A stretch of 64,000 bases of DNA, taken from the IMG/VR virus record IMGVR_UViG_3300028423_001099, positions 1 through 64,000 of that record. One strand, 5' to 3'. The position numbers were made by a program, and so were the translations under genes. This stretch comes from a virus. Shown here piece after piece: positions 14,669 to 41,906 of the stretch (within the stretch, counting starts at the first letter, position 1; every line of letters starts with the position of its first letter). The notes below the pieces were generated by a model that saw only the letters and a list, made by a program, of their open reading frames with translations, was not told where the DNA came from and made no database searches.

Positions 14669-15491
14669 TTTTTTTTTCAGCCGTGTTGCTGTCAGTGGAT
14701 TCACTGATGTCAGATGTTGGCGTTTTTGGATTTGGCTGGTACACTGTTTCTAGATGAACTCCTCTCTGCATCAAGCTGAAGTTTGCAGCCATCAGCAATA
14801 GAATAGCCATGGGATCAAACACAAAAATAAACGCAATGATTACCCATCTCACTGCCTCTTCTAGGCGATCTTCGCCTGCACCATATACCAGTTCAGCAAT
14901 ATATTTCACTGGACCTACTTCCAGTGCCACAGCCTGCAGCTCTTGGTTGAGATCAAGGCGCTGGTCTTCTAGCTCAGCAATTTTCTGCTGACTTTCTGTG
15001 ATAATTTGCTGTAGACTGTCTCTTTCGGTTTGCTGTGCTTCGCGTGCTTCTAAGCCGCGTGTGACAAATCCTCGTTCCACATACTCGTTGATTGCCGAAT
15101 CCAGTTGTTCTAGTGCAGTTTCCGCTCGTGTAATATCCAGCTCTGCTCTGCTGATCTGTTGGTCCAATCGCTCAACCACAGCAGTATTTGAATCCACGCT
15201 GGCAGTTTGTTCAAGGTGTGCTTTGGAGAGGAGACCAAAAATGCCCATGGAAGTCAACAGCATGGCAACAATTACCAAAGGCACCATGGCATACTTGATT
15301 TTGGTGGGTGCTTGCCAGTTGCGGTACAGCCAGCTTACACCTACTACTTTGCCAAGTTCGATCACACAGCCCATAATCAAAGCATGATAAGGCAAACCAG
15401 CAAAGATGGCCATGATGCCCATGATAGCAAACGTGGCTGCAGTGCCTGCCATGGCCAGTGCTGTAAACAATGTCATTATCGAAAAGATCAT
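14643..15491 (-). CDS. Membrane protein with coiled coil, 282 aa
   Basis: Start set at the ATG at 15491, five bases behind a late box. Two or three membrane segments at about 5-32, 38-55 and 70-90, a long periplasmic or cytoplasmic coiled coil at about 95-190, and a further membrane segment near 215-240. The architecture resembles inner-membrane coiled-coil proteins of T4-like marine phages of unknown role. The zero-frame end after the A9 run is short and unlike coiled coil (RSLNSNNN). An alternative frame extends it (see 14302-14668). Confidence 0.75.
   Translation of the reverse strand: MIFSIMTLFTALAMAGTAATFAIMGIMAIFAGLPYHALIMGCVIELGKVVGVSWLYRNWQAPTKIKYAMVPLVIVAMLLTSMGIFGLLSKAHLEQTASVDSNTAVVERLDQQISRAELDITRAETALEQLDSAINEYVERGFVTRGLEAREAQQTERDSLQQIITESQQKIAELEDQRLDLNQELQAVALEVGPVKYIAELVYGAGEDRLEEAVRWVIIAFIFVFDPMAILLLMAANFSLMQRGVHLETVYQPNPKTPTSDISESTDSNTAEKKRSLNSNNN
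14669..14677 (-). other. A9 run: probable -1 slippery site
   Basis: Nine T on the plus strand, so GAA AAA AAA AGA on the coding strand. A slip back of one base over A-AAA-AAA places the ribosome in the long downstream frame. Confidence 0.55.
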
Positions 15492-15496
15492 ACTTG

Positions 15497-15504
15497 TATT
15501 TATT
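15497..15504 (-). promoter_or_regulatory. Late box AATAAATA, five bases before a start codon
   Basis: Minus strand AATAAATA, then CAAGT, then the ATG at 15491. The transcription start expected for a T4-type late promoter would fall on the A of the ATG. Confidence 0.65.
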
Positions 15505-15541
15505 ACAAACATAGAATGTTTTTGGTTGGGCACAAGGACCA

Positions 15542-15549
15542 TATAAATA
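15542..15549 (+). promoter_or_regulatory. Late box TATAAATA, five bases before a GTG
   Basis: Plus strand TATAAATA, then TCCCT, then GTG at 15555. Divergent to the box at 15497-15504, giving a back-to-back late promoter pair. Confidence 0.6.
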
Positions 15550-15554
15550 TCCCT

Positions 15555-16670
15555 GTGCACATAGAAAAAATAAAAAACAACATCAAACAGGGTGCTTTTC
15601 CTGGATTAGTTGACCTTTTTGTTGGCGATGCTTCAAAATCATATCTTCCTGGACCAGCAAAGCATGTGAAAGCCATATACGGCAGTGAAATAACCAACCA
15701 GCTGGCAAATCACAGCATATTTCTAGCACGAAAATTCGGACCCACAGGCATTGACATCTATGACCTGCTTTTACAGTCACCTACAAATTTTGCTGACACC
15801 GTGTTTGAACTGGACTGTCAAACCTATGGATCATACCCTGCCGCAATAAAAAAACGCCTGGAACACTACAATGTTGTGGTACACGATTTCATGGAAGGCG
15901 GTTTTTGTTTGCAAGACATCGATGTACTTCCAGGCACAGCATCAGTTACGGGCTCAGTTAATGACCTGCCTATTTTTATGTTGAGCACTCTTGCTGAATC
16001 AATTAGAACCAATAACCTTTGCAGTGAATTTCCTGTGTGCACAGAGAAAAAGTTGGCTATCGTGCCGGTTCACAAACCGAGATCTATTAGGCTGGATCTT
16101 CTACATGCGCTGGACCAAAATAATTTGCTTGAGCACTGTGATTGGTCTTTGTGGTTTAACACAGGAGACATAGGCAAGCTGGGCGACTTTGCACACAGCC
16201 CAAATGTCAGCAAAGATAGATGGATAGATCAACTACAACATCCATTTGTGCAGAAGCACTGGCACGCTCTGCCGAAGCAACTGGATCACATCGAAACCTT
16301 TGAGGAGTGTGTGCCTTTGCACAAACAGTATCACGGCAAATACCGATGGCATATTGTCTGTGAGACCTACACGAATCTGTGTTTTGCCACAGAAAAAACC
16401 TTCAAGGCATTTGTTGCAGGACATGTTCCGCTTACCGTGGCACCGCCTGGATTCAATTGTCTTGTAGAAGAGTTAGGATTTGTTATGCCAGGCGACTATG
16501 ACAATCTCAAAGGCGAAAGCAGAATCACTAGAATCATAGAAATATTAAAAGGTGATCACAGCGACCGCACAGAGATAGCAAAACACAACTATCAGCTGGC
16601 TACATCAGTTGAATCAACCTCAGCTATCATAGTAAACAGGATAAGAAGACTCATCAACCTTCATAGATAG
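15555..16670 (+). CDS. Glycosyltransferase-like (exostosin-type) protein
   Basis: About 371 residues from a GTG at 15555 (39 bases longer from an ATG at 15516). The C-terminal half contains a segment seen in exostosin/GT47-like phage proteins: ATEKTFKAFVAGHVPLTVAPPG followed by a helix and a GFVMPGDYDN loop. A paralogue lies at 24730-25842 with the same SEKTF...GIPGL block. It probably transfers a sugar, but donor and acceptor are not readable. Ends 17 bases inside the convergent PTPS-like gene. Confidence 0.65.
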   Translation: MHIEKIKNNIKQGAFPGLVDLFVGDASKSYLPGPAKHVKAIYGSEITNQLANHSIFLARKFGPTGIDIYDLLLQSPTNFADTVFELDCQTYGSYPAAIKKRLEHYNVVVHDFMEGGFCLQDIDVLPGTASVTGSVNDLPIFMLSTLAESIRTNNLCSEFPVCTEKKLAIVPVHKPRSIRLDLLHALDQNNLLEHCDWSLWFNTGDIGKLGDFAHSPNVSKDRWIDQLQHPFVQKHWHALPKQLDHIETFEECVPLHKQYHGKYRWHIVCETYTNLCFATEKTFKAFVAGHVPLTVAPPGFNCLVEELGFVMPGDYDNLKGESRITRIIEILKGDHSDRTEIAKHNYQLATSVESTSAIIVNRIRRLINLHR

Positions 16671-17148
16671 CACTGTTGCCAGCATGTTCAAACACTTCTG
16701 CACTTTTTACACGAACTGTGGGATTGAGAGCAGAACCGTCTTTGATGCTGTTGCGAATAATCTCACTCATTTTGTTGTAGGCCATTTCAGCAAATCGCTC
16801 ACACCCTACAGCGGGCACAATCCTCAGATCACACAGTGCAGAGTTCTCATCACCGTTGATCTCGCCAATGTCTGCCATCTGCTTGAAGAACTCCAGATGT
16901 GGATCATCCTCTGCTACAACTAGTGTGTGGTCAAACATGTATGATGCCCAGCTCTTGAAGTCTCTGAGACCACCAAAGTCCATGACCCAGTTGCGTTCAT
17001 CCAAACCGTCACATTCAAAGGTTAGTTTGATGCCAATACTGTAGCCATGCAAGAAACTGCAGTGTGAATGCTTGCTACGCCACTGGCGGAAACAGCAACT
17101 GAGTCCGCGATCGTTGCCAAGTGTTTTGGTTGAGTAGAATTTTGCCAT
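16654..17148 (-). CDS. Divergent 6-pyruvoyl-tetrahydropterin synthase/QueD-like protein
   Basis: A 164-residue T-fold protein. It keeps C30-S-F-L-H34-G and the D57-F-G-G-L and DHTL segments of the PTPS/QueD family, but the second zinc histidine of the usual H-G-H is a tyrosine (Y36), and the N-terminal F-S-x-x-H is replaced. The canonical QueD paralogue is at 18235. Either the metal site is rebuilt or the enzyme has another reaction. GGAGAATATC lies just before the start. Confidence 0.75.
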   Translation of the reverse strand: MAKFYSTKTLGNDRGLSCCFRQWRSKHSHCSFLHGYSIGIKLTFECDGLDERNWVMDFGGLRDFKSWASYMFDHTLVVAEDDPHLEFFKQMADIGEINGDENSALCDLRIVPAVGCERFAEMAYNKMSEIIRNSIKDGSALNPTVRVKSAEVFEHAGNSAIYEG

Positions 17149-17157
17149 GATATTCTC

Positions 17158-17421
17158 CTATTTGCTCAGTCTGTATGTGACTTGCTCTGGACCGTGACTG
17201 GTGAATTCCATGCCGCTCACTGAGCCAATGTAGAGGCCATCATAGTCAAAGTTTTTGTTGGGAGCAGGTTGCCACCGCATCGATATTTTCACACTGCGGT
17301 CAACGCTGACATCAAGCAGTTTTTGAGGTACAAAGTTTAAGATCTCTCCTGTGACTGTGCGGCCGCGATCAGTGTTGGTAACTTCGCAGGTGTCTGCATA
17401 TTCTGTGCGTGTTTGTGTCAT
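17158..17421 (-). CDS. Hypothetical protein, 87 aa
   Basis: Start at the ATG at 17421, with AAGGAA upstream. Beta-rich composition (VTNTDRGRTVTGEIL, DVSVDRSVKISMRWQ, YIGSVSGMEFTS). It lies between the nuclease and the PTPS-like gene in one operon. Family not recognised. Confidence 0.65.
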   Translation of the reverse strand: MTQTRTEYADTCEVTNTDRGRTVTGEILNFVPQKLLDVSVDRSVKISMRWQPAPNKNFDYDGLYIGSVSGMEFTSHGPEQVTYRLSK

Positions 17422-17425
17422 TGAT

Positions 17426-17851
17426 TCATTCCTTTGGTTTGAATCCTTGTTCTGCAAGTATTCGTTGGTTAGCTAGGTGTTGTTCCTGCATGCCTGTGCG
17501 GTTATCTGGATTCCAGTGCACAGCATGATGTGATTGTAACAGAACCGATACAAGACTGCGACCATCTTCCAGTTGAAAATCACCTAATACTCTGCCAAAA
17601 GCATCAGTGGCATTGAATTCTTTGCTGAACAACACATACTGCTTGCCTAGCGTTAAATTCTGCTCCACAAACTGAGTGGCTAGGTTTCCATAGTACTTTT
17701 CAGTGAGGTCTCTGGTGCGAGACTCTGGAGCATCAATGCCGGGCAATCTCACTCGCACATTGTGCAACCATGTGTCAAACCCAAGGTCAATGTCCACATC
17801 AACTGTGTCGCCGTCGACAATCCTCTTGATAATGCAGTTGTAGGTATACAT
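17426..17851 (-). CDS. Thermonuclease (SNase) family protein
   Basis: A 141-residue staphylococcal-nuclease fold. The start at 17851 has AGGTTAACTA upstream; the longer frame overlaps the next gene. Active-site residues are present: VDGDTVDVD (10-20, calcium site), R33/R35 in NVRVRLPGIDAPE, E43, and R87 in FGRVLG. It cleaves DNA or RNA. There is no signal peptide, so it acts inside the cell. Host DNA breakdown is a likely use but not shown. Confidence 0.88.
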   Translation of the reverse strand: MYTYNCIIKRIVDGDTVDVDIDLGFDTWLHNVRVRLPGIDAPESRTRDLTEKYYGNLATQFVEQNLTLGKQYVLFSKEFNATDAFGRVLGDFQLEDGRSLVSVLLQSHHAVHWNPDNRTGMQEQHLANQRILAEQGFKPKE

Positions 17852-17861
17852 GTTAGTTAAC

Positions 17862-18224
17862 CTATTGATAATTGAGATAGATTTCTTGGTGCCAATGTAT
17901 GTGTTGGGGCCATGCTTTGTCTGAAGCCAACACTGTGGCAAGAGCACCTGGTATAAAAGGCAAGTATTTTTCCAAAAACTCTGTTTTGCTGAAAACACGG
18001 CAACCCTTGGCTTGCCAGTCACCAAATACATTTGCAAACTGTTCTTTTGCCACGCTAAGGGGTGTTACACCAACATGCAGCATGCCCTCATTGTAGATAG
18101 GATCGCCGTCGGGAGTAAAACTCCAATGCGGAGGCTCACTCCAGTGATGGTCTTGAAGTTTGGGCGTGCACACCATCATATACAAAGGACTTGCGGCGCC
18201 ATGATTGTGACGATCGCTTACCAT
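17862..18224 (-). CDS. Hypothetical protein, about 120 aa
   Basis: Start uncertain: the frame opens at 18254, but 18224 (MVSDRHNHGAASP) lies just after the QueD stop and would allow re-initiation. No clear ribosome site for either. The protein is rich in H, W and P with no membrane segment. Not recognised. Confidence 0.55.
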   Translation of the reverse strand: MVSDRHNHGAASPLYMMVCTPKLQDHHWSEPPHWSFTPDGDPIYNEGMLHVGVTPLSVAKEQFANVFGDWQAKGCRVFSKTEFLEKYLPFIPGALATVLASDKAWPQHIHWHQEIYLNYQ

Positions 18225-18234
18225 GAAAACGGGA

Positions 18235-18666
18235 TCATTGCTCCACATGCACATCTACACTACACTTGCGGGTTTCTTGAATATTCACGCTGATCAACTT
18301 TGCTCCTGTGCCTTTAAGCTGTTCGGGCGCCACAGTGTTGAGCAGATAGTTGCCCATGTTTTCAGCAGTGGGATTGAACTCCACAATCACTGTGCCCTCA
18401 GAATCAAGCTGCTTGAGGCCCTGTGCCCAAGGGTCCTGTGACCAGATCAGGAATCGGTGATCCCAGTGTTCTTCCAACCACTCGCAAAGAAGATCTTTGA
18501 TCACTGAGAAGTCTAGCACGCGACCTACATGGTCCAATTCATCTGCTTGCACTGTGAAATACACACGATAATTGTGTCCGTGCAGGTGCGCACATTTGCT
18601 CTCGTGACCGTACACACGATGTCCTGTGCTGAAGTCGTGATATCTGGTTGCTGTGATTTTATTCAT
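18235..18666 (-). CDS. queD: 6-carboxytetrahydropterin synthase (QueD)
   Basis: A 143-residue canonical member: zinc ligands H16, H29 and H31 (FSTGHR, LHGHNY), catalytic C25, and the E/P block EFNPTAENMGNYL near 95-108. In bacteria it makes carboxytetrahydropterin, the first branch-point to queuosine and 7-deazaguanine. No queC, queE or queF is visible, so a link to a 7-deazaguanine DNA modification is only a suggestion. It overlaps sleB by four bases. Confidence 0.92.
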   Translation of the reverse strand: MNKITATRYHDFSTGHRVYGHESKCAHLHGHNYRVYFTVQADELDHVGRVLDFSVIKDLLCEWLEEHWDHRFLIWSQDPWAQGLKQLDSEGTVIVEFNPTAENMGNYLLNTVAPEQLKGTGAKLISVNIQETRKCSVDVHVEQ

Positions 18667-19304
18667 CGATAAGTGCTCACATAAAAGTTATGATTGCCTA
18701 CCACTGCCACACGATCGTATACCTGCTGCCAGTGTGGATCAGCAAGATCAGGATTGAAGTAGTGTGTGGCACCACCTGTGTTGTCTGGGTAGATGCCCTC
18801 TAGTGCTCCTCTTGCAATGCTCAAACTCTCCTGCCAGGCTTTGACGTTGGGCTCAATGGGTGTGCCTTGGTTGTCCACAAGCACAACATTATCAGACTTG
18901 CCATCGCAGTACCAGCTAAACTGGCATTGGTGTCTTCGGGGCATTCTGTTGCCTCTCCAGTTTACAAAATACCTAGCATCATAGACCACGTCGCACACTT
19001 TGTCAGGATATCGATGATGCCAAACGCGATTGATGGTCACGTGGGCTACAGCAATCCTGCCTGCTCGGTTTTCTCCGCGCGCTTCATGATAGATGTTTGT
19101 TGCCAAACATTTGACTTCTTCTGGGGTCATCTCAATGGGATTTTTTGGTGCTAGGCTAGGTGCATCAACCAGAGGAAGCTGTTTGACTTCAATGTCTGCT
19201 GTGCGTTTGCCCGAGTCAATGACTGCTGTCACTGACACTGTGGTAGCACAAACAGCAATGCCATATAACACCAGTGATGCCAGTTTGTTGAAATCCAAAT
19301 TCAT
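18663..19304 (-). CDS. SleB-type cell wall hydrolase (membrane anchored)
   Basis: A 213-residue protein. An N-terminal membrane anchor or uncleaved signal (about 8-30) precedes a Hydrolase_2/SleB domain (about 60-210), with catalytic E74 in IYHEARGE and the conserved NRVWHHRYP, CQFSWYCDG and GATHYFNP blocks. It is predicted to cut peptidoglycan as a lytic transglycosylase in the periplasm. A phage could use it for lysis or for local wall opening. Confidence 0.9.
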   Translation of the reverse strand: MNLDFNKLASLVLYGIAVCATTVSVTAVIDSGKRTADIEVKQLPLVDAPSLAPKNPIEMTPEEVKCLATNIYHEARGENRAGRIAVAHVTINRVWHHRYPDKVCDVVYDARYFVNWRGNRMPRRHQCQFSWYCDGKSDNVVLVDNQGTPIEPNVKAWQESLSIARGALEGIYPDNTGGATHYFNPDLADPHWQQVYDRVAVVGNHNFYVSTYR

Positions 19305-19326
19305 GTTGACCTCCTCTGAGTCGACA

Positions 19327-19617
19327 CTACTGTGCTAGCTGAATGTCTGTGGTTGCTTCTGTGTAGGATTTAGCAATGCCTTCGTCTGTGAGAGCACAGG
19401 CAACAACTGTGTTTCTATTTAGTCGCAGTTTGTCGGGTTTGGCAGTCATCATATAGGGAATAATGCCCATGCCCTGCTGATTGGCTGCAATGGTGGCTGG
19501 CTTTGAAACCACCACCTGCTCATCTGTGGTTTCTATGTAGTTTGCAATAACTTCTTCGCCCGTGATGAGCTTGAGGCTGACAATGTCGTTTTCTTTGAGA
19601 GGCTTTTCAATAAGCAT
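19327..19617 (-). CDS. Small Sm-like beta-barrel protein (paralogue A)
   Basis: A 96-residue protein with strands matching a Sm/LSM-like pattern: VSLKLITGEEVIANYIE, then VVVSKPATIA and IIPYMMTA. It resembles the protein at 41902-42195 (TGEEIIAELLG, VLMPYVLTA), so the phage has two copies. An RNA-binding role would be inference. It is the first gene after the early promoter at 19642-19670 and starts the sleB-queD-nuclease operon. Confidence 0.6.
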   Translation of the reverse strand: MLIEKPLKENDIVSLKLITGEEVIANYIETTDEQVVVSKPATIAANQQGMGIIPYMMTAKPDKLRLNRNTVVACALTDEGIAKSYTEATTDIQLAQ

Positions 19618-19641
19618 GTTGATCTCCTGTTTGTATAGTGT

Positions 19642-19670
19642 ATTTTATCTGAAAAACACAGTGCAGTCAA
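19642..19670 (-). promoter_or_regulatory. Sigma-70-like (early) promoter
   Basis: Minus-strand TTGACT (19665-19670), 17 bases, TAAAAT (19642-19647). An AGGAG site follows in the leader of the Sm-like gene. Confidence 0.75.
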
Positions 19671-19740
19671 GTTTTTTGTGAAATTCGCCAAAAATAACCG
19701 TTTCTGCCTGGTATATTAACTTGGTTTGTAAATACAACAG

Positions 19741-19841
19741 TGGACAGCGCACTGTTCAGTCTAACAAGTAATTGAACACTGCGTCCCTCTTAGAATACGC
19801 TATATAGAAGCAGAGAACTGCAACTTTGGCTGTCCATTTTT
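19741..19841 (+). ncRNA. Candidate structured small RNA, about 100 nt
   Basis: In the 262-base gap between two genes. TGGACAG (19741-19747) pairs perfectly with CTGTCCA (19830-19836) to close a multi-branched fold. Inside are a 10-bp stem with one mismatch (19749-19758 with 19773-19782) and a GCAG/CTGC hairpin with an AGAA loop (19810-19821). The closing stem is followed at once by TTTTT (19837-19841), like a terminator, which indicates plus-strand transcription. No tRNA T-loop is present, and no open frame. I do not match it to a known family. Confidence 0.5.
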
Positions 19842-19851
19842 AATTATACAA

Positions 19852-19863: not shown

Positions 19864-19879
19864 CACACACATGATTGGA

Positions 19880-25956: not shown

Positions 25957-26793
25957 ATGATGGTGTGCTTCTACGATCACAAAAAAAATCTGTTGCTGTT
26001 GCCTATTAACAGATGCGGCGCAGGAATGTTTTCTGAGATTGCATCAGCAAGCACAGACCTAACAGTAACCACTGTTGAAGAATTTTTTGGAGGTGCCAGT
26101 CCGGACCAGATACCAGAGATTGTTGCTATTGTGCGGCACCCTACTCGTGCATTTGTCAGTGGTGTCTCAGAGATTTTTGACGTCAATGGAGTTAGGCCAA
26201 AAATAAATCACATAGATCATCGAGCATATCATCTCGGCAGCAGGCATCTATCGCATCGCCTTGCTATTCCTATGATTTTTGCATCAGCAGGCTGTACACT
26301 AACCATGTGGTTACTTGATGAACTCAGTGAAAAAATGATTGAGCTTTATCCCGAGCACAGTGAAATTATCAATCAGCATCACAGTGAAGATGCGTGTTCT
26401 ATGAGAACCAGCAATGTTCGACAGGTGCTATGTTGGCTCAGATATGAAGAATATATCAACAGTGTAAATGTCCAACATGCGTCCGAGTTGACCTGGGAAC
26501 AGTGGATGGAGCCCGAATTGGACCTATACAAGCATTGTGTGGGTTTCAGGAGATGCCAGCAACACTCAAACGACCATGACCCAAAAAGTGTTGGTGAGGG
26601 TTGCGTTAGACGGCTGTTTGACACAGAAGCATATTGGTGTGATAGAGCCCCGTCTTATCTAGCGCACGAACTGCCTCTCAACCTCATTGCTAAACTTTCG
26701 TCACTCGACCCCCACTGTTTTGATCCCAAAATAGTAGAGCTTAACAATAGCACAATGTCACGACTTAGCACAGACAAAAAAATTAACATTTGA
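25957..26793 (+). CDS. Sulfotransferase-like P-loop protein
   Basis: 278 residues. The N-terminal strand-loop LLLLPINRCGAGMFSEIA and the IVAIVRHPTRAFVSGV segment correspond to the 5' and 3' phosphosulfate-binding motifs of the sulfotransferase family. A second such protein is at 43605-44159. It is more diverged than that copy. Acceptor unknown. Confidence 0.6.
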   Translation: MMVCFYDHKKNLLLLPINRCGAGMFSEIASASTDLTVTTVEEFFGGASPDQIPEIVAIVRHPTRAFVSGVSEIFDVNGVRPKINHIDHRAYHLGSRHLSHRLAIPMIFASAGCTLTMWLLDELSEKMIELYPEHSEIINQHHSEDACSMRTSNVRQVLCWLRYEEYINSVNVQHASELTWEQWMEPELDLYKHCVGFRRCQQHSNDHDPKSVGEGCVRRLFDTEAYWCDRAPSYLAHELPLNLIAKLSSLDPHCFDPKIVELNNSTMSRLSTDKKINI

Positions 26794-26799
26794 TAAATA
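26792..26799 (+). promoter_or_regulatory. Late box GATAAATA, eight bases before ATG
   Basis: Plus strand GATAAATA at the stop of the upstream gene, eight bases before the ATG at 26808. The predicted leader would be about three bases. Confidence 0.55.
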
Positions 26800-26807: not shown

Positions 26808-28361
26808 ATGCGCAAAGCTGTGATCTATCCGGGACGTTTTCAGCCTATGCTGAGACACCACGCAGAAGTGTTTCAAACACTGCGGGCACAATTTCCTGAT
26901 GCTGAAGTTTACCTGTCTAGCACAAACAAAACTGACAGCGATTCTAGCCCTTTTAGCTTTCGGGAAAAACAACAAATAGCTTCTCAGATGTATGGCATTG
27001 ATTCGAGTAAGATGCTGGAAATTCCAGTGCCCTACAATGTAGACATGTATGACTTTGACCCAGATAACACACTGTTGATCATGGCAGTGGGAGGCAAAGA
27101 CTATGATCGCTTTCCTGTAAAAAACGTCAACGACGAAACAGGATTGGTCATGAAGAAAACAGCAGATGAACCCGCACGATTACAGCCAATAGATACTATG
27201 AAGGGCGATCCGTTGCCAATGAAACAGAGAGCATATATTGCTTATGCTCCTACAGTAGAAGACCAGCAGGGCGATGTACGCAGTGCCAGTGCATTTCGTC
27301 AACAGTTCAAGTCGGCACCAGATAAACAAACAGCACAAAAAGTATTCACCAGACATTTCGGAGAATACAACGAAGAAATTTTCAATTTGGTCTATGACCG
27401 ACTAGTGGAGCAGGATATGAATGAATCAATAAACACTGTGAGAAAGCTGGCAGGACTGCCAGAAGTCCACAGAGAGCAAGAGGTCACACAGGAAGCAGCT
27501 CCTGTGGACTATGCAATGACTGATGCAGAGAAACAGCTGGCAGAGCTAGGCAGAACACTCATGGACAATGCCATGCAGGAAAACAGTGACAAGCTATCCA
27601 ACTACATGAGTTTGGTTGGTCGCATGTTCACAGAATATGGCACAAACGAGGGTGCAAAATCTCTGCCTGAACTTGCTGACAAGTTGAAAATGTCCGAGGA
27701 AGAGGTGTTGAAATTTGCAGCTTATGCTCAAAAATTACAACAAGAAAAAGAAGGCACACCAGACAACGAAACCGAAATTGACCTCAGTGACTTCTACGAG
27801 GGCGAAGTGCCCAAAGACGAATTCGACGAAGCATCGCCGTTGGTGGGTGCAGCAGCGAGTGTTGCAGGGCGCATGGCTTCTAAATCTGCAGCACGCCGTG
27901 GTGCAGGCAAAACTCTCAGCAGGGCTGCAGGCAGTGTTGCAGGCGCTGCGGCCAAATCGGCATTGTCCAAGGCATCGGGCACAGCAAGGAAGAAATCAGG
28001 CAACAAGGACAGCGACATGGAAGAGGGTTCTGTTGCAGACTTTCATGCTGGCCAAGACACAGAGTCGGGCCCGGGCTGTGACTACTATGATCGGGAAACA
28101 CCTGTGGCAGATACATTTAGCCACAAAACAGTTGGAGATCTGTCGCCCATCGAAGCCACTGCTCGTCTGAGCACAACTGCAGTAAACGATGCAATGGGCC
28201 GGCTGGACATGATCAAAGAAAAGCTCTGTGATGACTCTGAGTTGCACACAGAAGTGCACAATGACATACAAGATATCATGGACATGCTACGTGATTATCG
28301 CAGAGAAATTGTAAATATAGCAGATGACGCAATGAGTCATCAAGGAGATAAAAATGTCTAA
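26808..28361 (+). CDS. Nucleotidyltransferase fused to internal-protein-like domain
   Basis: 517 residues. Residues 1 to about 175 are a cytidylyltransferase/NMN-adenylyltransferase-like domain: YPGRFQPMLRHHAEVF (HxGH-type site altered to RHHAE), then R-S-A-S-A-F-R in the second motif. From about 205 a new start-like peptide appears (MNESINTVRKLAGLPEV), followed by helical, Ala-rich (about 345-400) and acidic segments. So an enzyme joined to a virion-type protein. Start at 26808; the longer frame begins before the promoter box. Confidence 0.75.
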   Translation: MRKAVIYPGRFQPMLRHHAEVFQTLRAQFPDAEVYLSSTNKTDSDSSPFSFREKQQIASQMYGIDSSKMLEIPVPYNVDMYDFDPDNTLLIMAVGGKDYDRFPVKNVNDETGLVMKKTADEPARLQPIDTMKGDPLPMKQRAYIAYAPTVEDQQGDVRSASAFRQQFKSAPDKQTAQKVFTRHFGEYNEEIFNLVYDRLVEQDMNESINTVRKLAGLPEVHREQEVTQEAAPVDYAMTDAEKQLAELGRTLMDNAMQENSDKLSNYMSLVGRMFTEYGTNEGAKSLPELADKLKMSEEEVLKFAAYAQKLQQEKEGTPDNETEIDLSDFYEGEVPKDEFDEASPLVGAAASVAGRMASKSAARRGAGKTLSRAAGSVAGAAAKSALSKASGTARKKSGNKDSDMEEGSVADFHAGQDTESGPGCDYYDRETPVADTFSHKTVGDLSPIEATARLSTTAVNDAMGRLDMIKEKLCDDSELHTEVHNDIQDIMDMLRDYRREIVNIADDAMSHQGDKNV

Positions 28362-29669: not shown

Positions 29670-30254
29670 CTAGCGAACGCTGCGATACAGCTTTTTAAAC
29701 AGTTTGTCTCGCTTTTGCTTGGCATGCTTGAGTTTGAATTCACTCACATGGTCCAAGAACACTTGTCCTTGTAGGTGATCATACTCATGCAGGAAACAGC
29801 GAGCATCCATGCCATCCATCCAGGTTTCAACTTGAGTTTTGCCGTCAGTCTTGTAATACCTTACTTTGATTTCTGCCGGACGTTCGACCAATAGATACAA
29901 CAGTGGCCATGTGAGGCAGCCTTCTTTGATTTTTGCTGATCCCTGTGTTTCTAGGATTTCCGGTTTGTAGACACCAATGTCGCCAAGCATGCTATGTGTC
30001 ATCACAAACATATTATAACTACTGCCCAGTTGGTTGGCTGCTAGGCCAATGCCCATGTTGTCGTGCATCAAAGCAAGCATTTCCTGTTCTCGCTGATGCC
30101 AGTCGACGTCGCTGCTAAACGGATCAGTGGTAGCTTTGCGATACAGTGCAGGATGACTGGGCTCTACTAGCTCGCAGTGCCACTCGTCTACACTGAGACT
30201 GCTTGTGCGCACCGAACTACTGCTGGCATATCGATCGTAGGGATTATATTGCAT
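29670..30254 (-). CDS. def: Peptide deformylase
   Basis: 194 residues with all three family motifs: G68-I-G-L-A-A-N-Q, E111-G-C113-L-T-W-P and H156-E-Y-D-H160. It removes the formyl group from nascent proteins, using Fe or Zn. The EGCLTWP form and a 30-residue N-terminal extension differ from host Def. Start codon lies five bases after a late box, so the message is probably leaderless. Confidence 0.93.
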   Translation of the reverse strand: MQYNPYDRYASSSSVRTSSLSVDEWHCELVEPSHPALYRKATTDPFSSDVDWHQREQEMLALMHDNMGIGLAANQLGSSYNMFVMTHSMLGDIGVYKPEILETQGSAKIKEGCLTWPLLYLLVERPAEIKVRYYKTDGKTQVETWMDGMDARCFLHEYDHLQGQVFLDHVSEFKLKHAKQKRDKLFKKLYRSVR

Positions 30255-30259
30255 AACTG

Positions 30260-30267
30260 TATTTATT
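30260..30267 (-). promoter_or_regulatory. Late box AATAAATA, five bases before ATG
   Basis: Minus strand AATAAATA, CAGTT, then the def ATG at 30254. A second AATAAATA on the same strand is at 30288-30295. Confidence 0.65.
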
Positions 30268-30313
30268 TGAAATTTCTGAGACTGCGATATTTATTTGAAG
30301 AGATATCAATCAA

Positions 30314-30321
30314 GATAAATA
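30314..30321 (+). promoter_or_regulatory. Late box GATAAATA, five bases before ATG
   Basis: Plus strand GATAAATA, CCATT, then ATG at 30327. Divergent to the def box; the two starts are 73 bases apart. Confidence 0.65.
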
Positions 30322-30326
30322 CCATT

Positions 30327-31175
30327 ATGAGCAAAGTGCCCGACAACAACACAGTTTATCTCACTGATGTACTGCCTTTGAATCGCTGGGAGTTGGTTGA
30401 TCTATACACAAGAGCCTGGGCGCAAAGAAATGAAAATGCGTGGTACGGATATATTCCTAAAACAGCACTATACTTTGATGACCCACTGAGTGTCACAAAA
30501 CAGACCCTTGACAATTATTTTTCGGGTCATAGATATCAAAAACATCCTGACGAAATACTTGAATATGATCGAGGAGAAGATTCTAGCACGGAATATTTTG
30601 CCAAGCTGGTATGGCTCACACACGATTATTTTAGATACAATGGTTTTCAGACCCCGATATGTGCACATTACAATCCTAGACTTGATTGCAATGTGATTCA
30701 CCCCGGAGGTTCTAGGAATCAAATTCTCAATCTATTTGGAGACGATAAACTAGAAGCCATGTATTTCAACACAGGCGGCGTTGAACCGCCCTGGCTAGCA
30801 GATATGAAAAAAATAGACATTGCGGATTTTATGTTGAATCGAGGCTGGGCCGCTGGTGCAGTTCCAGACCACGGTAGTCTGATTCCGCACTTTGTTAAAA
30901 AGACACATTGGATACCCTTGGGTATTCGTAGATTTCAGAGATATTTGTACAAGCTGATGCATGCATCTTCGGTTCCGTTGCAAATCAAAAGCAACACAGA
31001 CCTAGAGTATCTTGGGCCGTGGCAAGTATCGGATGCATCTGAGCACGACGTCAGAGTCGATGCTCACCATCAACTAGATCAAATAGACCAAATAAAAATC
31101 ACACTTTTGGCTTGTGCAAAAGTGAATTATCAGTATAAAAATTACAAAATAACATGCAAGAAACCTATCAACTAG
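30327..31175 (+). CDS. Hypothetical protein, 282 aa
   Basis: Start at 30327 (MSKVPDNNTVYLTDVLP) by promoter position. Soluble; contains ICAHYNPRLDCNVIHPGGSRNQIL, which could be a nucleotide- or sugar-binding loop, and a basic region near 200. It overlaps the radical SAM gene by 22 bases, so the two probably work together, perhaps as partner or substrate-binding protein. Not recognised. Confidence 0.65.
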   Translation: MSKVPDNNTVYLTDVLPLNRWELVDLYTRAWAQRNENAWYGYIPKTALYFDDPLSVTKQTLDNYFSGHRYQKHPDEILEYDRGEDSSTEYFAKLVWLTHDYFRYNGFQTPICAHYNPRLDCNVIHPGGSRNQILNLFGDDKLEAMYFNTGGVEPPWLADMKKIDIADFMLNRGWAAGAVPDHGSLIPHFVKKTHWIPLGIRRFQRYLYKLMHASSVPLQIKSNTDLEYLGPWQVSDASEHDVRVDAHHQLDQIDQIKITLLACAKVNYQYKNYKITCKKPIN

Positions 31176-36103: not shown

Positions 36104-37007
36104 TTTTGCCTGTGAACAGTTTTCTGATGTTGCCACGAAATGTGTAGTGACCTACGTGGTTCAGTGCAGTCCTCGGATCAAGATACACATCGCCGCCCAG
36201 GTTTTGCCACAGTCTGCAGAAAGTGTAGTCTTCACTGAGATAGCGACGGCTCTCTGGATCAATCATAGTATCAAACAGTGCATACATGTAAGGCTCAAAC
36301 TTTTGATCCACGTTGATATCATTGACATATTTGAGCTCTGGGTGTGCATCAAACAGTTGCTGGATGGCCTCTTTTTTGATGCACATAAATCCTGTGCCAG
36401 CATCTTTAAGCTTTACTAAATTGTCTACGATCTGGACCTGTCCAGTTTTAGCGCCCGATTCGTCTTCCACAAAATCAAAGTTCACCACATAGTTGGAACT
36501 ATGTCCTTCAATGGTATCAGCAGTTTCACTGGGGTCATTTCTAGCAGCAGTGATTATGCTGTTCCAGTTCACTGCCTTCTTGGGATAAGCACCCACAATC
36601 ACAGGCTTGTCATAGGCCACCATTCTGAGCAGGTCTTCTGCATTGAATTCAATGTCTGCATCAATGAAGAACAGATGTGTGGCTTCGGAGTTTTCCATGA
36701 AGAAACTGGTCAGTGTGTTACGGCCTCTGGTAACCAAGCTCTCGTTGGCCAGTGTGCTCACAGTAAAAGGAATATCATACTTGTTGCATAGGATGCTGAG
36801 GCGCATCATGCTGCGAAAGTAAGGCTCTCCAATCTGTCCACCATAGCATGGTGTAGCAATAAAAATATGCTTGCTGCGCAGGAGACCCACTGGAATCTCA
36901 ATCTTGGAATCGAGCAGTTGATGTAAAACATCACTGTTTGATGTTGTGGTCTGTGAGTTATGGTTTTTCTTGTTTTTTTTGGTTTTTTTCTGTGTGTTTT
37001 TGGGCAT
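36075..37007 (-). CDS. Glycosyltransferase-like protein (GT-A fold)
   Basis: 310 residues from the ATG at 37007 (MPKNTQKKTKKNKK, a very basic start). IFIATPCYGGQIGEPYF is the first strand-loop; ATHLFFIDADIEFNAEDLLRM carries D-x-D-x-E for metal and donor; CGxGFMCI-like and EDYTFCRLW segments later fit GT2/GT-A proteins widespread in T4-like marine phages. Sugar unknown. Confidence 0.78.
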   Translation of the reverse strand: MPKNTQKKTKKNKKNHNSQTTTSNSDVLHQLLDSKIEIPVGLLRSKHIFIATPCYGGQIGEPYFRSMMRLSILCNKYDIPFTVSTLANESLVTRGRNTLTSFFMENSEATHLFFIDADIEFNAEDLLRMVAYDKPVIVGAYPKKAVNWNSIITAARNDPSETADTIEGHSSNYVVNFDFVEDESGAKTGQVQIVDNLVKLKDAGTGFMCIKKEAIQQLFDAHPELKYVNDINVDQKFEPYMYALFDTMIDPESRRYLSEDYTFCRLWQNLGGDVYLDPRTALNHVGHYTFRGNIRKLFTGKNDTSKKTDK

Positions 37008-37096
37008 CTGTGTACTCTCAAGTATGTGGTTATGCAAAACAACCTGGTTTAGAGATGTAAATCAACTTTAGCTGTCTTAGTCACAGAGTATTTACA

Positions 37097-37130
37097 GTGC
37101 CGAACATGTCCATGTGTTTGTTTTCGGCAC
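37097..37130. repeat. Eight-base-pair hairpin
   Basis: GTGCCGAA (37097-37104) pairs with TTCGGCAC (37123-37130), loop of 18. It sits between a terminator-like hairpin and the leader of the 36075 gene. Confidence 0.5.
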
Positions 37131-37136
37131 ACAAAA

Positions 37137-37158
37137 ACACGGACATAATTGTCCGTGT
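37137..37158 (-). terminator. Intrinsic terminator for the 55-aa gene
   Basis: ACACGGACA (37137-37145) pairs with TGTCCGTGT (37150-37158) around a TAAT loop; on the minus strand it is followed by TTTTTGTG. It lies 26 bases after the stop of the gene at 37184. Confidence 0.7.
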
Positions 37159-37183
37159 CTGTTTTACAATAATTTTCTGGGGA

Positions 37184-37351
37184 TTATCTTTCGTTAGGAC
37201 GTTTGCTCACAAACTGATTAAGGCTTTCTGCTTCGTCGAGCACTTCTTCAGTGGTAGGCATGTCTTCGGGGTTTTTGGCTCGTGCTTGAAGTATTTCTCT
37301 GGCTTCACGCACAAGATCCAAACGAATTTCGTAAGGAGTTTTGTTTGACAT
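37184..37351 (-). CDS. Small helical protein, 55 aa
   Basis: Begins MSNKTPYEIRLDLVREAREI, charged and helical throughout, with AAGGAT before the ATG and a late box 49 bases further upstream. It has its own promoter and terminator, which suggests a monocistronic, well expressed message. T4-like marine phages often carry such a small protein; no function known. Confidence 0.7.
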   Translation of the reverse strand: MSNKTPYEIRLDLVREAREILQARAKNPEDMPTTEEVLDEAESLNQFVSKRPNER

Positions 37352-37399
37352 TTTTCTAATCCTTTATTACACGCCGGCTTCAGCGCATTAACTTAGTAA

Positions 37400-37407
37400 T
37401 ATTTATT
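37400..37407 (-). promoter_or_regulatory. T4-type late promoter box AATAAATA
   Basis: Minus strand AATAAATA, about 50 bases upstream of the 55-aa gene, with a normal leader and AAGGAT site. Confidence 0.6.
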
Positions 37408-37448
37408 AAAAAAATGTCAAAAAGTTATAACTGTACATTGAGAAGATT

Positions 37449-37907
37449 CTAGTGACATTTTTGGTCGATCCAGTGTTTCACATACAGCCTGGTTTCCAAG
37501 GTGTGTGCTTCTGCTTCCCAAGGCAAATGTCTGTACACCGTGCCTTCCTTGACACCTTTGCCGGTCTGGGTCCAAACTGTACCGTCGCTGGATAACTGTC
37601 CTTTTATAAGCTGCTTGGCATGAACCAACTCATGTGCTAGACTGATCAACACAGTGGAATAATCGTATGCTATGTATGTGCCAGTTTGTAGATCAGTGTA
37701 GCCTTTGGCAACATCGATCCATACTTCATTTTTGTCGCCATGACAAAATCCATAAACACCAGACCCTAAACAGCGACGAAAATGTATCCACACATCCACA
37801 GGTCGCTGAAATCGCCGTGTAAAGAAACTTGATAGTACATCACGAGCATACTCAGTGACCTGATGTTTGTTTTTGATAGTACCACTTATTGTTACTTCAA
37901 AGCACAC
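37449..37907 (-). CDS. SprT-like zinc metalloprotein
   Basis: 152 residues starting at a GTG with GGAGATAGAC upstream. The H-E-x-x-H motif is visible as AHELVHAKQL, with a W-E-x-E-A-H segment (LPWEAEAHTLE) downstream that may give the third ligand. Such small HExxH proteins in phages are predicted proteases of unknown target. Confidence 0.7.
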   Translation of the reverse strand: MCFEVTISGTIKNKHQVTEYARDVLSSFFTRRFQRPVDVWIHFRRCLGSGVYGFCHGDKNEVWIDVAKGYTDLQTGTYIAYDYSTVLISLAHELVHAKQLIKGQLSSDGTVWTQTGKGVKEGTVYRHLPWEAEAHTLETRLYVKHWIDQKCH

Positions 37908-37937
37908 AGTCTATCTCCTGAAAATTCCTACTAAATT

Positions 37938-37966
37938 ATGATAACACATTGTGTATTTTATAGCAA
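37938..37966 (-). promoter_or_regulatory. Weaker sigma-70-like promoter
   Basis: Minus-strand TTGCTA (37961-37966), 17 bases, TATCAT (37938-37943), upstream of the HExxH gene. Less close to consensus than the others. Confidence 0.5.
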
Positions 37967-37976
37967 GTTCAACAAA

Positions 37977-39014
37977 TTACCAGTCAAAGCTGTAGGAATT
38001 TATGTCAATAAGGCAGTTATTGTCAATGATATCTTGTGCCTGTTTGAGCACATCTTCAGCTTCTGTGCTAAAAACTGGCATGGAAAGGCTTTTGTCGTCG
38101 GGTATATTTAGATGGAACAAAGGATATCTGTATCGACAGTCAAAATCATTGTATCGCCCGGTTTGCATAGCTAAATGAACTTTGAGCCTCTCAAATCCAG
38201 TGAATTTTTTCAATGGCATCATAAAATCAAAGCCAAAGCTGTTGTAAAATGCCTGCTTGTATTCGTCTACACTTGACTTCAACGTGTCGCCAAAGTTGGC
38301 AATTATTTTTTTGTTTTCAAGCACCCAAAAGTTTTGTTTTAACGCTTTGTAATAGATTTCACTGCTCATGAGAAAGGGATCTCTGATAAGTGTCATGTGG
38401 TTGTCTGATGCCATTTTCACATATGGCATGACCAGTCTTCGAAAATGTGTTACTTGACTATTCACAACTCCATCGGTCAGCGATGAAGGCCACCTGAATG
38501 GCAGAACCGCAACGTTATTTTGGTGTCCTATCACAGGAAATTCGCCTCCCATGAGAACTGGCAGATTTTGATCTGCTAGATGCTGCTCTATGGCATATAG
38601 ATGGCAAGCAATCTGTGGGCTCAATGCATAATACTTTTTTGCTACGCTGGTCAGCTCATTGTCTAAAAAATGCTTTAAATCAATGTCGACAACATGATGT
38701 GTGATTTGATGTTTTTGACAAAACCGCGTGGCCATCAGCACATCACTGGAGTTTACAACGTCATCATTCCAGAAATACTGGAATGTATATGCTTGCATGC
38801 TTTTGCAGTGCTTTTTTGCAAGATGCGCAGAAAATTGACTGTCAAGACCCCCACTGAGACACAGCAAAATTTCTGGATACTCTGCAAACTGCTCAGCCCA
38901 CATACTCTCCAACGACCTATTGGTTTTTTCTAGGCACACATGCACTGTTTTTGCCTGTAGATCAAAGGTCACTGCTTCGGGCTTTCCCAGTGAGAATGTG
39001 TTCTTTGCAGTCAA
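37977..39014 (-). CDS. Asparagine-synthetase-like PP-loop protein
   Basis: About 345 residues. The PP-loop S-G-G-L-D-S (residues 54-59 from the chosen start) binds ATP for adenylation. No N-terminal glutaminase domain or catalytic Cys, so it cannot be a classical AsnB. Start at a TTG (39014) behind AAAGG is a guess; longer frames run across the divergent late promoter. Similar stand-alone domains make amide bonds or adenylate carboxylates, including in lasso-peptide and sugar pathways. Confidence 0.68.
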   Translation of the reverse strand: MTAKNTFSLGKPEAVTFDLQAKTVHVCLEKTNRSLESMWAEQFAEYPEILLCLSGGLDSQFSAHLAKKHCKSMQAYTFQYFWNDDVVNSSDVLMATRFCQKHQITHHVVDIDLKHFLDNELTSVAKKYYALSPQIACHLYAIEQHLADQNLPVLMGGEFPVIGHQNNVAVLPFRWPSSLTDGVVNSQVTHFRRLVMPYVKMASDNHMTLIRDPFLMSSEIYYKALKQNFWVLENKKIIANFGDTLKSSVDEYKQAFYNSFGFDFMMPLKKFTGFERLKVHLAMQTGRYNDFDCRYRYPLFHLNIPDDKSLSMPVFSTEAEDVLKQAQDIIDNNCLIDINSYSFDW

Positions 39015-39042
39015 TATTTTGCCTTTGTTATAACATAGATTT

Positions 39043-39050
39043 GATAAATA
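39043..39050 (+). promoter_or_regulatory. T4-type late promoter box GATAAATA
   Basis: Plus strand, 46 bases upstream of the ATG at 39097, with GGAG in the leader. Confidence 0.65.
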
Positions 39051-39096
39051 CTTATTGATAAAACATCGCAAACCCACGATTTCACGGAGATCTCGA

Positions 39097-40617
39097 ATGT
39101 CATTGTATATTGTTAAACTAGATAAAGCCAATTACCCAGGCGGAGACACAGAAGCTCGTTCTGCCATGTCTTCAGCAGGAATTGCGGTTGAAAAAGCATT
39201 TCAACTATCACCATTGATGTACTTAGTAAACGGAGATGCCAATGACATCGACTCCCTGCCGGGATTGATGCACAAAGAGCAACATTCAACTGGATACAAT
39301 GTTAGCCTGGAAAATCTCAACACTGATCATTTGAAACTCACTGTTGACAGTGCCGGAACCACAGAGTTTAATCCAAAATACACAGGCAACAATGTTGACA
39401 TTTATCTAGTTGACACAGGTGTTAATCAGTCGCATACAGAATTTCAAGGCTCTACCATCAATGACTTGTACACCAACTTTGAAAACAATTACAGCGATGA
39501 TGTTGGACACGGCACTGCAATGGCAAGTCTGCTGGTAGGGCAAAACATCGGAGCTGCCAAAGATGCTCAATTGCACAATGTGAAGCTGTTTGGCAATAGC
39601 AACAGTACTGTTGTTATTGGAGAAATAATTGATGCACTAGAGTCTGTGCTAGTGCAGCATAATACCAGCTCAGGAAATAACATCGCAATTGTGTGCGCTC
39701 CGTGGGTAATTAATTTTAGTGCATTGTTGAATGACGTTGTCGAGAGCATGCTGTCACATGGTATAATTTTTGTATGTGCGGCAGGAAATTCAAGTGCCGA
39801 TGTTGAGAACTTTTCGCCAGCATCAGTGAAAGATGCTATCACTGTGGGAGCATACAACAGAAACTTTGAGGTTACATCATTTACAAATACACCGTGGACA
39901 AACAATGAGCCCACTGAGCCCACGTTGGTCAACTATGGTCGTTCTTTGGATATTTTTGCACTTGGTGTGGACGTAACAGCTGCTAGCATTGGAGCAAATG
40001 ATGATTATTTGCAGGCCACCGGTACCAGCACATCGGCCGCGATTGCTGCAGGAGTTCTAGCTCATTACATAGAAGCGCATCAGAACAGATCGTCAGCAGA
40101 AATCAAACAAATATTCTTGATGGAAGGTCATTATCTTGGCCGGACCAACCTGGTTTTTGACAACCAGAATTCAAATGTTGATTACAGTGAAGTTAATAGT
40201 TCTGTGGTGACTACAGAAAGAATCGATGAAAATAGTTTGACCACCAAACCTTCAGGCAGGCTTACAAATATCAAAGCTGGTGAGACAGCGCAAGTTGACC
40301 TAGGACTTAACAGCAACGCCACAGAAGTAGAGCTGTTGGATTTTGCACCAGCCCCAAGCTGGATAACAGTAGATTTAAGCACAGGAATAGTAACAGTTGA
40401 TGCAGGAAATTTGACCAACGAAACCGTGCCAGGAAATTATATTTTTGCATTAAAAGGCAATGTCAACGATCAAGTTCTGGTTGAAGAGTTTGCTGTAGGG
40501 GTTTATCAAGATAGCGAAGCAGAGTTAGCGAGCGAAGACGTGTCAGCGTTCTACTATGATGCTGACAGCGATGCATACGATGAAGTAGCAGACCTATCTC
40601 TTGCCTCAAAGTTCTAA
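39097..40617 (+). CDS. Subtilisin-like (S8) serine protease
   Basis: 506 residues from the ATG at 39097 (GGAG upstream). Residues 1 to about 75 look like an inhibitor-type propeptide. The triad is D106 (YLVDTGVNQSHTEF), H138 (GHGTAMASLLVG) and S311 (GTSTSAAIAAG), with the oxyanion N231 in AAGNSS. A C-terminal beta domain (about 385-506) follows. No signal peptide, so it acts in the cytoplasm or virion. A role in processing virion proteins is possible but not shown. Confidence 0.9.
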   Translation: MSLYIVKLDKANYPGGDTEARSAMSSAGIAVEKAFQLSPLMYLVNGDANDIDSLPGLMHKEQHSTGYNVSLENLNTDHLKLTVDSAGTTEFNPKYTGNNVDIYLVDTGVNQSHTEFQGSTINDLYTNFENNYSDDVGHGTAMASLLVGQNIGAAKDAQLHNVKLFGNSNSTVVIGEIIDALESVLVQHNTSSGNNIAIVCAPWVINFSALLNDVVESMLSHGIIFVCAAGNSSADVENFSPASVKDAITVGAYNRNFEVTSFTNTPWTNNEPTEPTLVNYGRSLDIFALGVDVTAASIGANDDYLQATGTSTSAAIAAGVLAHYIEAHQNRSSAEIKQIFLMEGHYLGRTNLVFDNQNSNVDYSEVNSSVVTTERIDENSLTTKPSGRLTNIKAGETAQVDLGLNSNATEVELLDFAPAPSWITVDLSTGIVTVDAGNLTNETVPGNYIFALKGNVNDQVLVEEFAVGVYQDSEAELASEDVSAFYYDADSDAYDEVADLSLASKF

Positions 40618-40632
40618 CAGGGCAATTGTGCG

Positions 40633-41640
40633 TTGACCTGCAATATCCTAGATGTAACTACATCAAATACTGTTTACAATCCAACTTCAGCACAGGGACA
40701 ATGGTTTCAGCACCGCTGGGGTCCTAGACAATATCCACAGTTATCAGTAGATCTCAAGTGGGTTAAAAGGTCAGTGCCCAGGGATCTAAAGTATGAGTTG
40801 CGCTGTATTTACGGCGATCCAATCTGCTGGAACGAATTGGTTTATTTTGCAGAATGGACCAAAGTCAAACCAGAGGTTTTCACATATGCTAACACGGACC
40901 AGCAAGATATATTGCATGCCCTCAACAGGATGGGCTGTTACACAGTAATAAGTCTTGACGGTGTTGGCGATCTCTGCGGCAAGGTAAACTTGGGTGCATC
41001 ATGGGACAATGTCCAACGTTCAATTGACGCTATATCTGGATGCGGCGCAGTTGAAATGCACACCTTTGAACACAACCTACATCAACTGCCTGAGTTATAT
41101 AAGATCTGCAAAAATCACGATATACAATTGTTTCTCAACTGTGACACCCGCAACGACAAGTTTGGAACATCTGTGATTGACAGCAAGTGTAACTGGCTCT
41201 ATGATGTCAAGCCCTGCGACACAGGAATACACGCAGTCAACGACAATAACATCGAACTCTTACAGGCGGATGCATACACAGACACAGAATCTGTGTTTTT
41301 AGACAAAAATCTCTGGGCGTTTACTTCACTCCGAACTTACATGCCAGTGTCAAGACATCGCAACATACTAGAGAATCCGTTGTTAGGCAACACAGAAATT
41401 CCCACAGAAATCAAAAAGAAATTTGACACAGAGTACGAGAGCCAAGAAGGCATGTTTGTAACGCCAGATGAAAAAATACTGTGGAATCACAAAGTGTACA
41501 CAATGTACATGTATCTGTTGGCCAATGACTGGAAGTTGGATAAAAATTACCTAGAGAAAAACAAAGACAATGTGTTTGTGCTCGAAGTGCTGCTGTATGC
41601 ACAGCACTTACACAGAGATGTCATTCTACAAACACAGTAG
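40633..41640 (+). CDS. Degenerate radical-SAM-like barrel protein
   Basis: 335 residues from a TTG (40633); start weakly supported. IYGDPICWNELVYFAEW, then FTYANTDQQDILHALN and VISLDGVGDLCGKVNLGASWDN follow the strand order of radical SAM barrels (GEPL-type turn, T-N-G-like, S-I-D-G). The C-x3-C-x2-C cluster motif is missing, so radical chemistry is not expected. It overlaps the end of the convergent PAAR gene. Confidence 0.55.
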   Translation: MTCNILDVTTSNTVYNPTSAQGQWFQHRWGPRQYPQLSVDLKWVKRSVPRDLKYELRCIYGDPICWNELVYFAEWTKVKPEVFTYANTDQQDILHALNRMGCYTVISLDGVGDLCGKVNLGASWDNVQRSIDAISGCGAVEMHTFEHNLHQLPELYKICKNHDIQLFLNCDTRNDKFGTSVIDSKCNWLYDVKPCDTGIHAVNDNNIELLQADAYTDTESVFLDKNLWAFTSLRTYMPVSRHRNILENPLLGNTEIPTEIKKKFDTEYESQEGMFVTPDEKILWNHKVYTMYMYLLANDWKLDKNYLEKNKDNVFVLEVLLYAQHLHRDVILQTQ

Positions 41641-41893
41641 GTGAACCGGTGCTCACAGGATGGCCACAGCTGGCCACGCTTCTTCCTGTGATGGACACCG
41701 GCCTACTTTGTGCAAATACTGTAACTGCTCCCGACACAACAACAGGATTACTGTGTGGTGGTGCACCATGGGGTGCTACAGTGTCACCAACTAAGCTGGC
41801 TGGTGCACCGTTGATCAGCACAGTAGGAGCGCCTGGGCCTGTGATCACGCCCGACGATACCAAATCAACTCCTACTCTTGCTTGTAGTCCCAT
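41621..41893 (-). CDS. PAAR-like spike tip protein
   Basis: 90 residues of Gly/Pro/Ala/Val-rich beta sequence with the PAAR-like pattern (GDTVAPHGAPPHSN, then S-G-S-V-F-V style turns, GRSVASCGHP and STGSPTVFVE at the end). In T4-like phages it caps the baseplate needle (gp5.4 type) and binds zinc. The start is five bases after a late box, so it is probably expressed on its own as a leaderless message. Confidence 0.85.
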   Translation of the reverse strand: MGLQARVGVDLVSSGVITGPGAPTVLINGAPASLVGDTVAPHGAPPHSNPVVVSGAVTVFAQSRPVSITGRSVASCGHPVSTGSPTVFVE

Positions 41894-41898
41894 ACTGT

Positions 41899-41906
41899 TA
41901 TTTATG
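41899..41906 (-). promoter_or_regulatory. Late box CATAAATA, five bases before ATG
   Basis: Minus strand CATAAATA, ACAGT, then the PAAR ATG at 41893. It lies at the stop of the preceding gene. Confidence 0.6.

Follow-up and report, generated by a model that had tools for sequence, protein, structure and literature searches.

The late messages of T4-type phages are usually regarded as leadered and driven by a Shine-Dalgarno (SD) site. Messages without a 5' leader are known from elsewhere among phages, for instance lambda cI and Thermus phage P23-45, and actinobacteria also have leaderless genes with a promoter next to the open reading frame (ORF). T4-type late promoters consist of a TATAAATA box whose use depends on gp55, gp33 and gp45, with the form NATAAATA in cyanophages (PMC2988020, PMC2984593), and in Deinococcus-Thermus leaderless genes carry a -10 motif that adjoins the ORF (PMC12340547). 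The present analysis concerns a stretch of 64,000 nucleotides (nt), hereafter the window, covering positions 1 to 64,000 of IMG/VR virus record IMGVR_UViG_3300028423_001099. Five genes of the window have a T4-type late box exactly 5 nt before the start codon and are predicted to be expressed from leaderless late mRNAs.

The boxes resemble T4-type late promoters in being the same 8-bp element about one helical turn before the start, but differ from those of T4 in that the first base is mostly G. With Deinococcus-Thermus the predicted layout shares a short and fixed promoter distance, a transcript beginning at the start codon and the lack of an SD site; the motif there is a -10 element of the host sigma-70 type, whereas here a gp55-type phage late promoter would act within a temporal programme. 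The lambda cI and P23-45 messages are likewise without a 5' leader, but their promoters and polymerase factors differ and are not those of T4-type late transcription. In T4 genes e, soc, 49 and I-TevI, as predicted here, late initiation leaves upstream sequence out of the message and thereby restricts translation to late transcripts; their late transcript keeps an SD leader, however, which would be absent in the genes described below. Furthermore, the large share of promoters predicted to start on the start codon sets the present genomes apart from T4, KVP40, Syn9, P-SSM2 and phiM12 (0-3 pattern matches each). The closest known concept is the ORF-adjacent -10 motif of Deinococcus-Thermus (PMC12340547), and the promoter-on-start-codon layout is apparently new for T4-type late promoters: no description of leaderless T4-type late messages was found in the open-access literature searched (most subscription journals lay outside this scope), nor any paper there with both 'leaderless' and the TATAAATA box.

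The window is part of an 86.6-kb virus record (the own record), apparently a fragment of a T4-related genome, in which homologues of T4-like UvsX, single-strand binding protein (gp32), replicative helicase (gp41) and primase (gp61) are encoded; the nearest relatives of its UvsX are in large T4-like phages, among them Sinorhizobium phage Phosso and Agrobacterium phage Atu_ph07. The core motif ATAAATA occurs 20 times in the window against 5.9 +/- 2.0 in shuffles, an excess typical of a T4-type late-promoter box. An earlier note on this DNA had listed five box-5 nt-start sites, all of which are correct to the base on direct reading. On the minus strand, AATAAATA-CAAGT-ATG (15504-15491; late box 15497..15504) precedes a membrane-protein gene (14643..15491, N-terminus MIFSIMTLF), AATAAATA-CAGTT-ATG (30267-30254; late box 30260..30267) precedes the peptide deformylase gene def (29670..30254; phrog_2890, E 1.7e-28), and CATAAATA-ACAGT-ATG (41906-41893; late box 41899..41906) precedes the gene of the PAAR protein of the spike tip (41621..41893; phrog_281, E 2.9e-13). 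On the plus strand, TATAAATA-TCCCT-GTG (15542-15557; late box 15542..15549) leads to a gene at 15555..16670 whose GTG at 15555 is the exceptional start codon of the set and whose product has no PHROG or Pfam match, and GATAAATA-CCATT-ATG (30314-30329; late box 30314..30321) leads to a gene with no assigned function at 30327..31175. A second late box upstream of def (30288..30295, minus strand) lies at spacing 33 and would yield a 28-nt leader. The other boxes of the window mostly stand 20-47 nt upstream of a start codon, with GGA- or GGAG-like sites.

The significance of these sites depends on how often such spacing arises by chance. Spacing was defined as the number of nt between the NATAAATA box and the start, and counted in the own record and nine relatives (G-numbered) retrieved via def and PAAR, using ORFs of at least 60 amino acids (aa) that start with ATG or GTG; expectations were taken from 20 permutations of the box. 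In this main set, 50 of 248 boxes have spacing 5 (1.4 expected) and nine have spacing 6 (1.2 expected). A further 375 non-duplicate boxes from relatives yielded 89 at spacing 5 (1.25 expected) and 21 at spacing 6 (2.4 expected), and the two sets combined represent 104 distinct N-termini at spacing 5 and 24 at 6. When 716 non-duplicate boxes were pooled, including those of a 340-kb relative, 153 lay at spacing 5, 35 at 6, four at 0-4, 19 at 7-14 and 219 at 15-35. The distribution is bimodal, corresponding to a leader of 0 or 1 nt or to one of SD length. In addition, ATAAATA box-5-ATG occurs at 33 sites in 12 records, and the one-base variants TTAAATA, CTAAATA, GTAAATA and ATAAGTA likewise peak at spacing 5; since these four share the peak, exact box matching undercounts. 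That the spacing-5 cluster is a product of composition in A+T-rich phage DNA might be suspected, the motif being short and A+T-rich and the five window sites having been chosen by eye. Permuted boxes of the same composition, however, yield only one or two sites per spacing (about 0.1 spacing-5 starts for the 20 boxes of the window), the reversed pattern occurs 0 times against the 33, and the excess over permuted or shuffled sequence is strong in independent loci of the relatives. Chance clustering is rejected on these grounds, and its probability is negligible.

Comparison of orthologues was equally informative. The earlier note had named freely varying spacing in related genomes as evidence that would speak against its interpretation, and no such variation is seen: the distance from promoter to start codon is fixed across orthologues. 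The most extensive comparison used a nucleotidyltransferase-like gene (alignment A1, 80 loci), which in the window (RKAVIYPGRFQPM) occupies 26808..28361 on the plus strand (phrog_395, E 1.1e-5). In relatives whose exact box is in frame, the spacing is 5 at about two dozen unique sites and 6 at nine, and no other in-frame exact-box spacing was found among them; orthologues without a box have an SD site or an upstream gene close by. A second box, GATAAATA, was observed inside this gene about 400 nt in (L001 13901, L003 13582, L005 14199 and L006 14253, all on the minus strand), followed at spacing 17-23 by an ATG with a long ORF behind it; this box may be an internal late promoter from which a shorter product is made.

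Among the five window genes, spacing largely agrees between orthologues of def and of the membrane protein once variant boxes are counted. The membrane-protein N-terminus aligns from residue 1 in G001, G002, G006 and G010, with spacing 5 retained in G001 and G006 and a variant box in G002. Homologues of def have spacing 5 in G005, G006 and G010 and variant boxes in G001 and G003. For PAAR, spacing 5 or 6 is found in six of nine records, including G002, G003, G005, G007 and G010, and no exact box was found in G006, G008 and G009. The homologue of the gene at 15555 starts with ATG at spacing 5 in G006; in G001 the protein begins MTHIEKL (window, MHIEKI) and the box stands at spacing 7. A scan queried with the glycosyltransferase-like protein gave no useful outcome. 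Altogether, for four of the five genes the start codon is supported by N-termini conserved in relatives; for the gene at 30327..31175 no relative was found. As orthologous proteins mostly align from the predicted first residue, the start codons are no mere annotation guess.

The base at which transcription is predicted to start can be approached independently of the leaderless set, because leadered promoters carry a signature at the same place without an ATG there. Among 84 leadered boxes, A occupies offset 5 after the box in 71% and T offset 4 in 60%, against a background of about 30% each; the purine at offset 5 lies about one helical turn from the box centre, the place of the start base in a late promoter as judged by the sequence signature. 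The probable +1 is the base that in leaderless genes forms the A of ATG, and the predicted start does not rest on T4 alone, since the leadered promoters mark the same base. At spacing 6, T is the usual sixth base and the A of ATG comes next, as if initiation shifted by one base onto the A. The same T-1/A+1 signature raises the question of whether ATG is simply an initiator consensus (box-N4-T-ATG) unrelated to translation. An A at offset 5 is indeed to be expected, the signature being general in these promoters, but the leadered boxes show A rather than ATG, where an ATG stands at offset 5 (162 boxes) it opens an ORF of 40 aa or more in 154 cases, and orthologous proteins align from that Met. 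Furthermore, an IMG/VR-wide scan with one exact version of the box (at least 120 stretches) found, among the matches listed, that an ORF of 60 aa or longer, with little in-frame extension on its upstream side, starts at 108 of 117 unique GATAAATANTAGTATG sites, compared with 13 of 42 sites of a permuted box (92% vs 31%). A pure promoter consensus is rejected on the leadered-box bases, the ORF opening and the permuted-box contrast, and is very improbable.

Signals of translation initiation also separate the two groups of genes. Leaderless initiation is expected to prefer AUG and to disfavour GTG. At spacing 5-6 the AUG:GUG ratio is 188:4, against 329:37 at spacing 15-50 (Fisher p 3e-4), and at base +4 A is found in 51% of the leaderless genes and G in 46% of the leadered ones. 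The two groups show only a slight difference in 5' folding energy. The predicted leaderless genes have no SD site; for the five window genes, the absence of a usable GGAG-type site reported in the earlier note was confirmed, though it is weak evidence by itself because the box sits where such a site would be, so that the absence is largely forced.

Based on the fixed spacing, the orthologues and the T-1/A+1 signature, the reading of these genes as sources of leaderless late mRNAs is supported as a strong prediction. The five boxes would act as gp55-type (T4-like) late promoters, with initiation 5 nt past the box, on the first base of the start codon (A in four genes, G in one); a late transcript of this kind would be without a 5' leader and would therefore have to be translated as leaderless mRNA. 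In other late genes of these phages, the same kind of promoter would give a leader of about 12-45 nt with an SD site. We put the probability that the five boxes are gp55-type late promoters giving leaderless late mRNAs at roughly 85%, both the true 5' end of the transcripts and ribosomal initiation without a leader being inferred from sequence. The likely use of the layout would be that only late-promoter transcripts offer an AUG at a free 5' end; since read-through transcripts from upstream have no SD site there, expression would be confined to late infection. Alternatively, the late promoters may be real while translation proceeds mainly from longer read-through transcripts, the short transcript being a by-product. 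T4-like late genes are often covered by upstream transcripts too, and the PAAR gene sits downstream of a same-strand gene, which is compatible with read-through. The divergent pairs 15491/15555 and 30254/30327, however, have the late boxes as their sole obvious promoters between the genes, a long transcript would have no SD site to serve it, and the spacing would not stay at 5-6 across divergent orthologues. Read-through as the main source of translation is accordingly quite unlikely.

Several observations weigh against the prediction of leaderless late mRNAs. The late box of the window nucleotidyltransferase gene (GATAAATA, 26792..26799, plus strand) lies at spacing 8 from its start at 26808, unlike in relatives, possibly reflecting a 3-nt leader or another start base. 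Spacing 7-8 also occurs in a few other genes, implying leaders of 2-3 nt. One of the five window genes starts with GTG; given the preference of leaderless initiation for AUG, efficient initiation is less secure at 15555 than at the other four starts, although homologues back the position of this codon. Finally, the fragmentary own record yielded no gp55, gp33 or gp45, and tblastn detected no gp45 sliding clamp in any relative.

Homologues of two T4-type late-transcription factors occur in relatives, and the own record has the T4-like replication genes named above. A gp55 late sigma factor homologue (E 2.6e-12; tblastn 4e-13) is encoded by the near-complete 340-kb relative IMGVR_UViG_3300024228_000554, and a gp33 co-activator homologue by G009 (E 1.6e-8). 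Among the 121 boxes of the 340-kb relative are those of 17 spacing-5 and six spacing-6 genes, which include the terminase large subunit, the head-tail adaptor, a tail-tube PHROG match, a weak tape-measure match and a radical-SAM protein. The tail-tube match makes it doubtful that leaderless genes are those of low-copy proteins only. Two further leaderless candidates, at 4215 in G010 (minus strand) and 13210 in G003 (plus strand), encode proteins judged by eye to be IscU/NifU-like and fatty-acid-desaturase-like, so that the predicted set is not limited to virion proteins.

Outside these records, the cultured pelagiphage HTVC008M, of another lineage (Kyanoviridae in its record), has the same pattern: nine ATAAATAN5ATG sites against one of the reversed pattern, all at annotated coding-sequence starts, with DNA-end protector, tape measure and base plate among the genes; its annotation is silent on the pattern. 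A general property of the T4 family is rejected, as T4 (2 pattern vs 0 reversed), Syn9 (1 vs 1), P-SSM2 (3 vs 3), KVP40 (0 vs 2) and phiM12 show little or no excess over the reversed-pattern controls, and likewise SCTP-2 (10 vs 8), Phosso, XaC1, GAP32, Vibrio 2.275.O and the Microcystis phages; Atu_ph07 has 5 vs 2, and most others have 0. Because carriers and non-carriers differ in this way, the layout is lineage-specific and occurs in at least two lineages. A tblastn search of two structural proteins against phage isolates gave no useful outcome.

The earlier note had further suggested that the phage-encoded ribosomal protein bS21 (12768..12923, minus strand; PF01165, E 4.4e-15) might remodel ribosomes for leaderless messages. 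Phage bS21 has been tied to late expression and is transcribed together with structural genes in other phages (PMC9723584), and it is present in every carrier tested, namely the own record, six relatives and HTVC008M. It is also encoded, however, by Atu_ph07, Phosso, SCTP-2, Vibrio 2.275.O, Mel-JY01 and LR756508, six phages with no or weak spacing-5 excess, so the layout does not simply accompany bS21. This explanation is unsupported and unlikely. The bS21 gene adjoins that of a ClpX-like AAA protein (12997-14271, minus strand), whose relative in G010 (start 7906, minus strand) itself lies at spacing 5 from a late box.

Leadered late promoters show a second arrangement that agrees with the start-base assignment. 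Downstream of the late box GATAAATA at 50158..50165 (minus strand), which belongs to a leadered comparator gene with spacing 30 and a GGAG, a perfect 9-bp inverted repeat, CTGTTATAT...ATATAACAG, spans 50127..50157; its 5' arm directly follows the box, GGAG lies in the loop and the GTG start at the 3' arm. In relatives the arms change in matched fashion (CTGTTAAG/CTTAACAG, CTGTTATG/CATAACAG and CTGTTATAT/ATATAACAG). Among 205 distinct leadered promoters, perfect repeats starting right after the box have arms of at least 8 bp in 10 cases (0.3 expected) and of at least 7 bp in 14 (0.9 expected), and often the second arm reaches the start codon and the loop contains GGAG. With +1 at box+5, the late transcript would therefore be without most of the 5' arm. 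T4 gene e has a documented hairpin of the same arrangement, and comparable sequestering structures have been described in soc, 49 and I-TevI (PMC3014915). Hairpins and leaderless layout may thus share the purpose of allowing translation only from late-initiated transcripts. More broadly, a widespread group of T4-type phages might run two translation programmes off one late promoter: a leaderless one, including terminase, head-tail adaptor, tail tube and tape measure, and a leadered one, partly gated by hairpins whose 5' arm precedes the start base, both restricting expression to late-initiated transcripts and possibly served by phage-altered ribosomes. This extension is tentative, and we give it somewhat less than an even chance.

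If the prediction of leaderless late mRNAs is true, leaderless initiation must be the route by which the host translates much of the virion programme, essential assembly genes included. The carriers are widespread uncultured T4-related phages, and the layout offers a direct test in a cultured marine phage, HTVC008M, as well as a rule by which the start codons of these genomes can be assigned, and it provides a natural setting in which to study how and why leaderless translation serves late infection.

Minor observations concern other genes. Host assignment did not go beyond the likeness of the window SufB to Gammaproteobacteria: the protein (2406-3854, minus strand) is 78% identical to gammaproteobacterial SufB over most of its length. 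With a SufS-like class-V aminotransferase at 7867-9081 (minus strand), it forms an apparent phage gene group for Fe-S cluster assembly. In addition, the late box CATAAATA stands about 7 nt before an apparent tRNA 5' end (GCGGGTGTAGCTCAG...) in G001 (38552, minus strand) and G007 (3257, minus strand), pointing to late expression of these tRNAs with hardly any leader in the two genomes.

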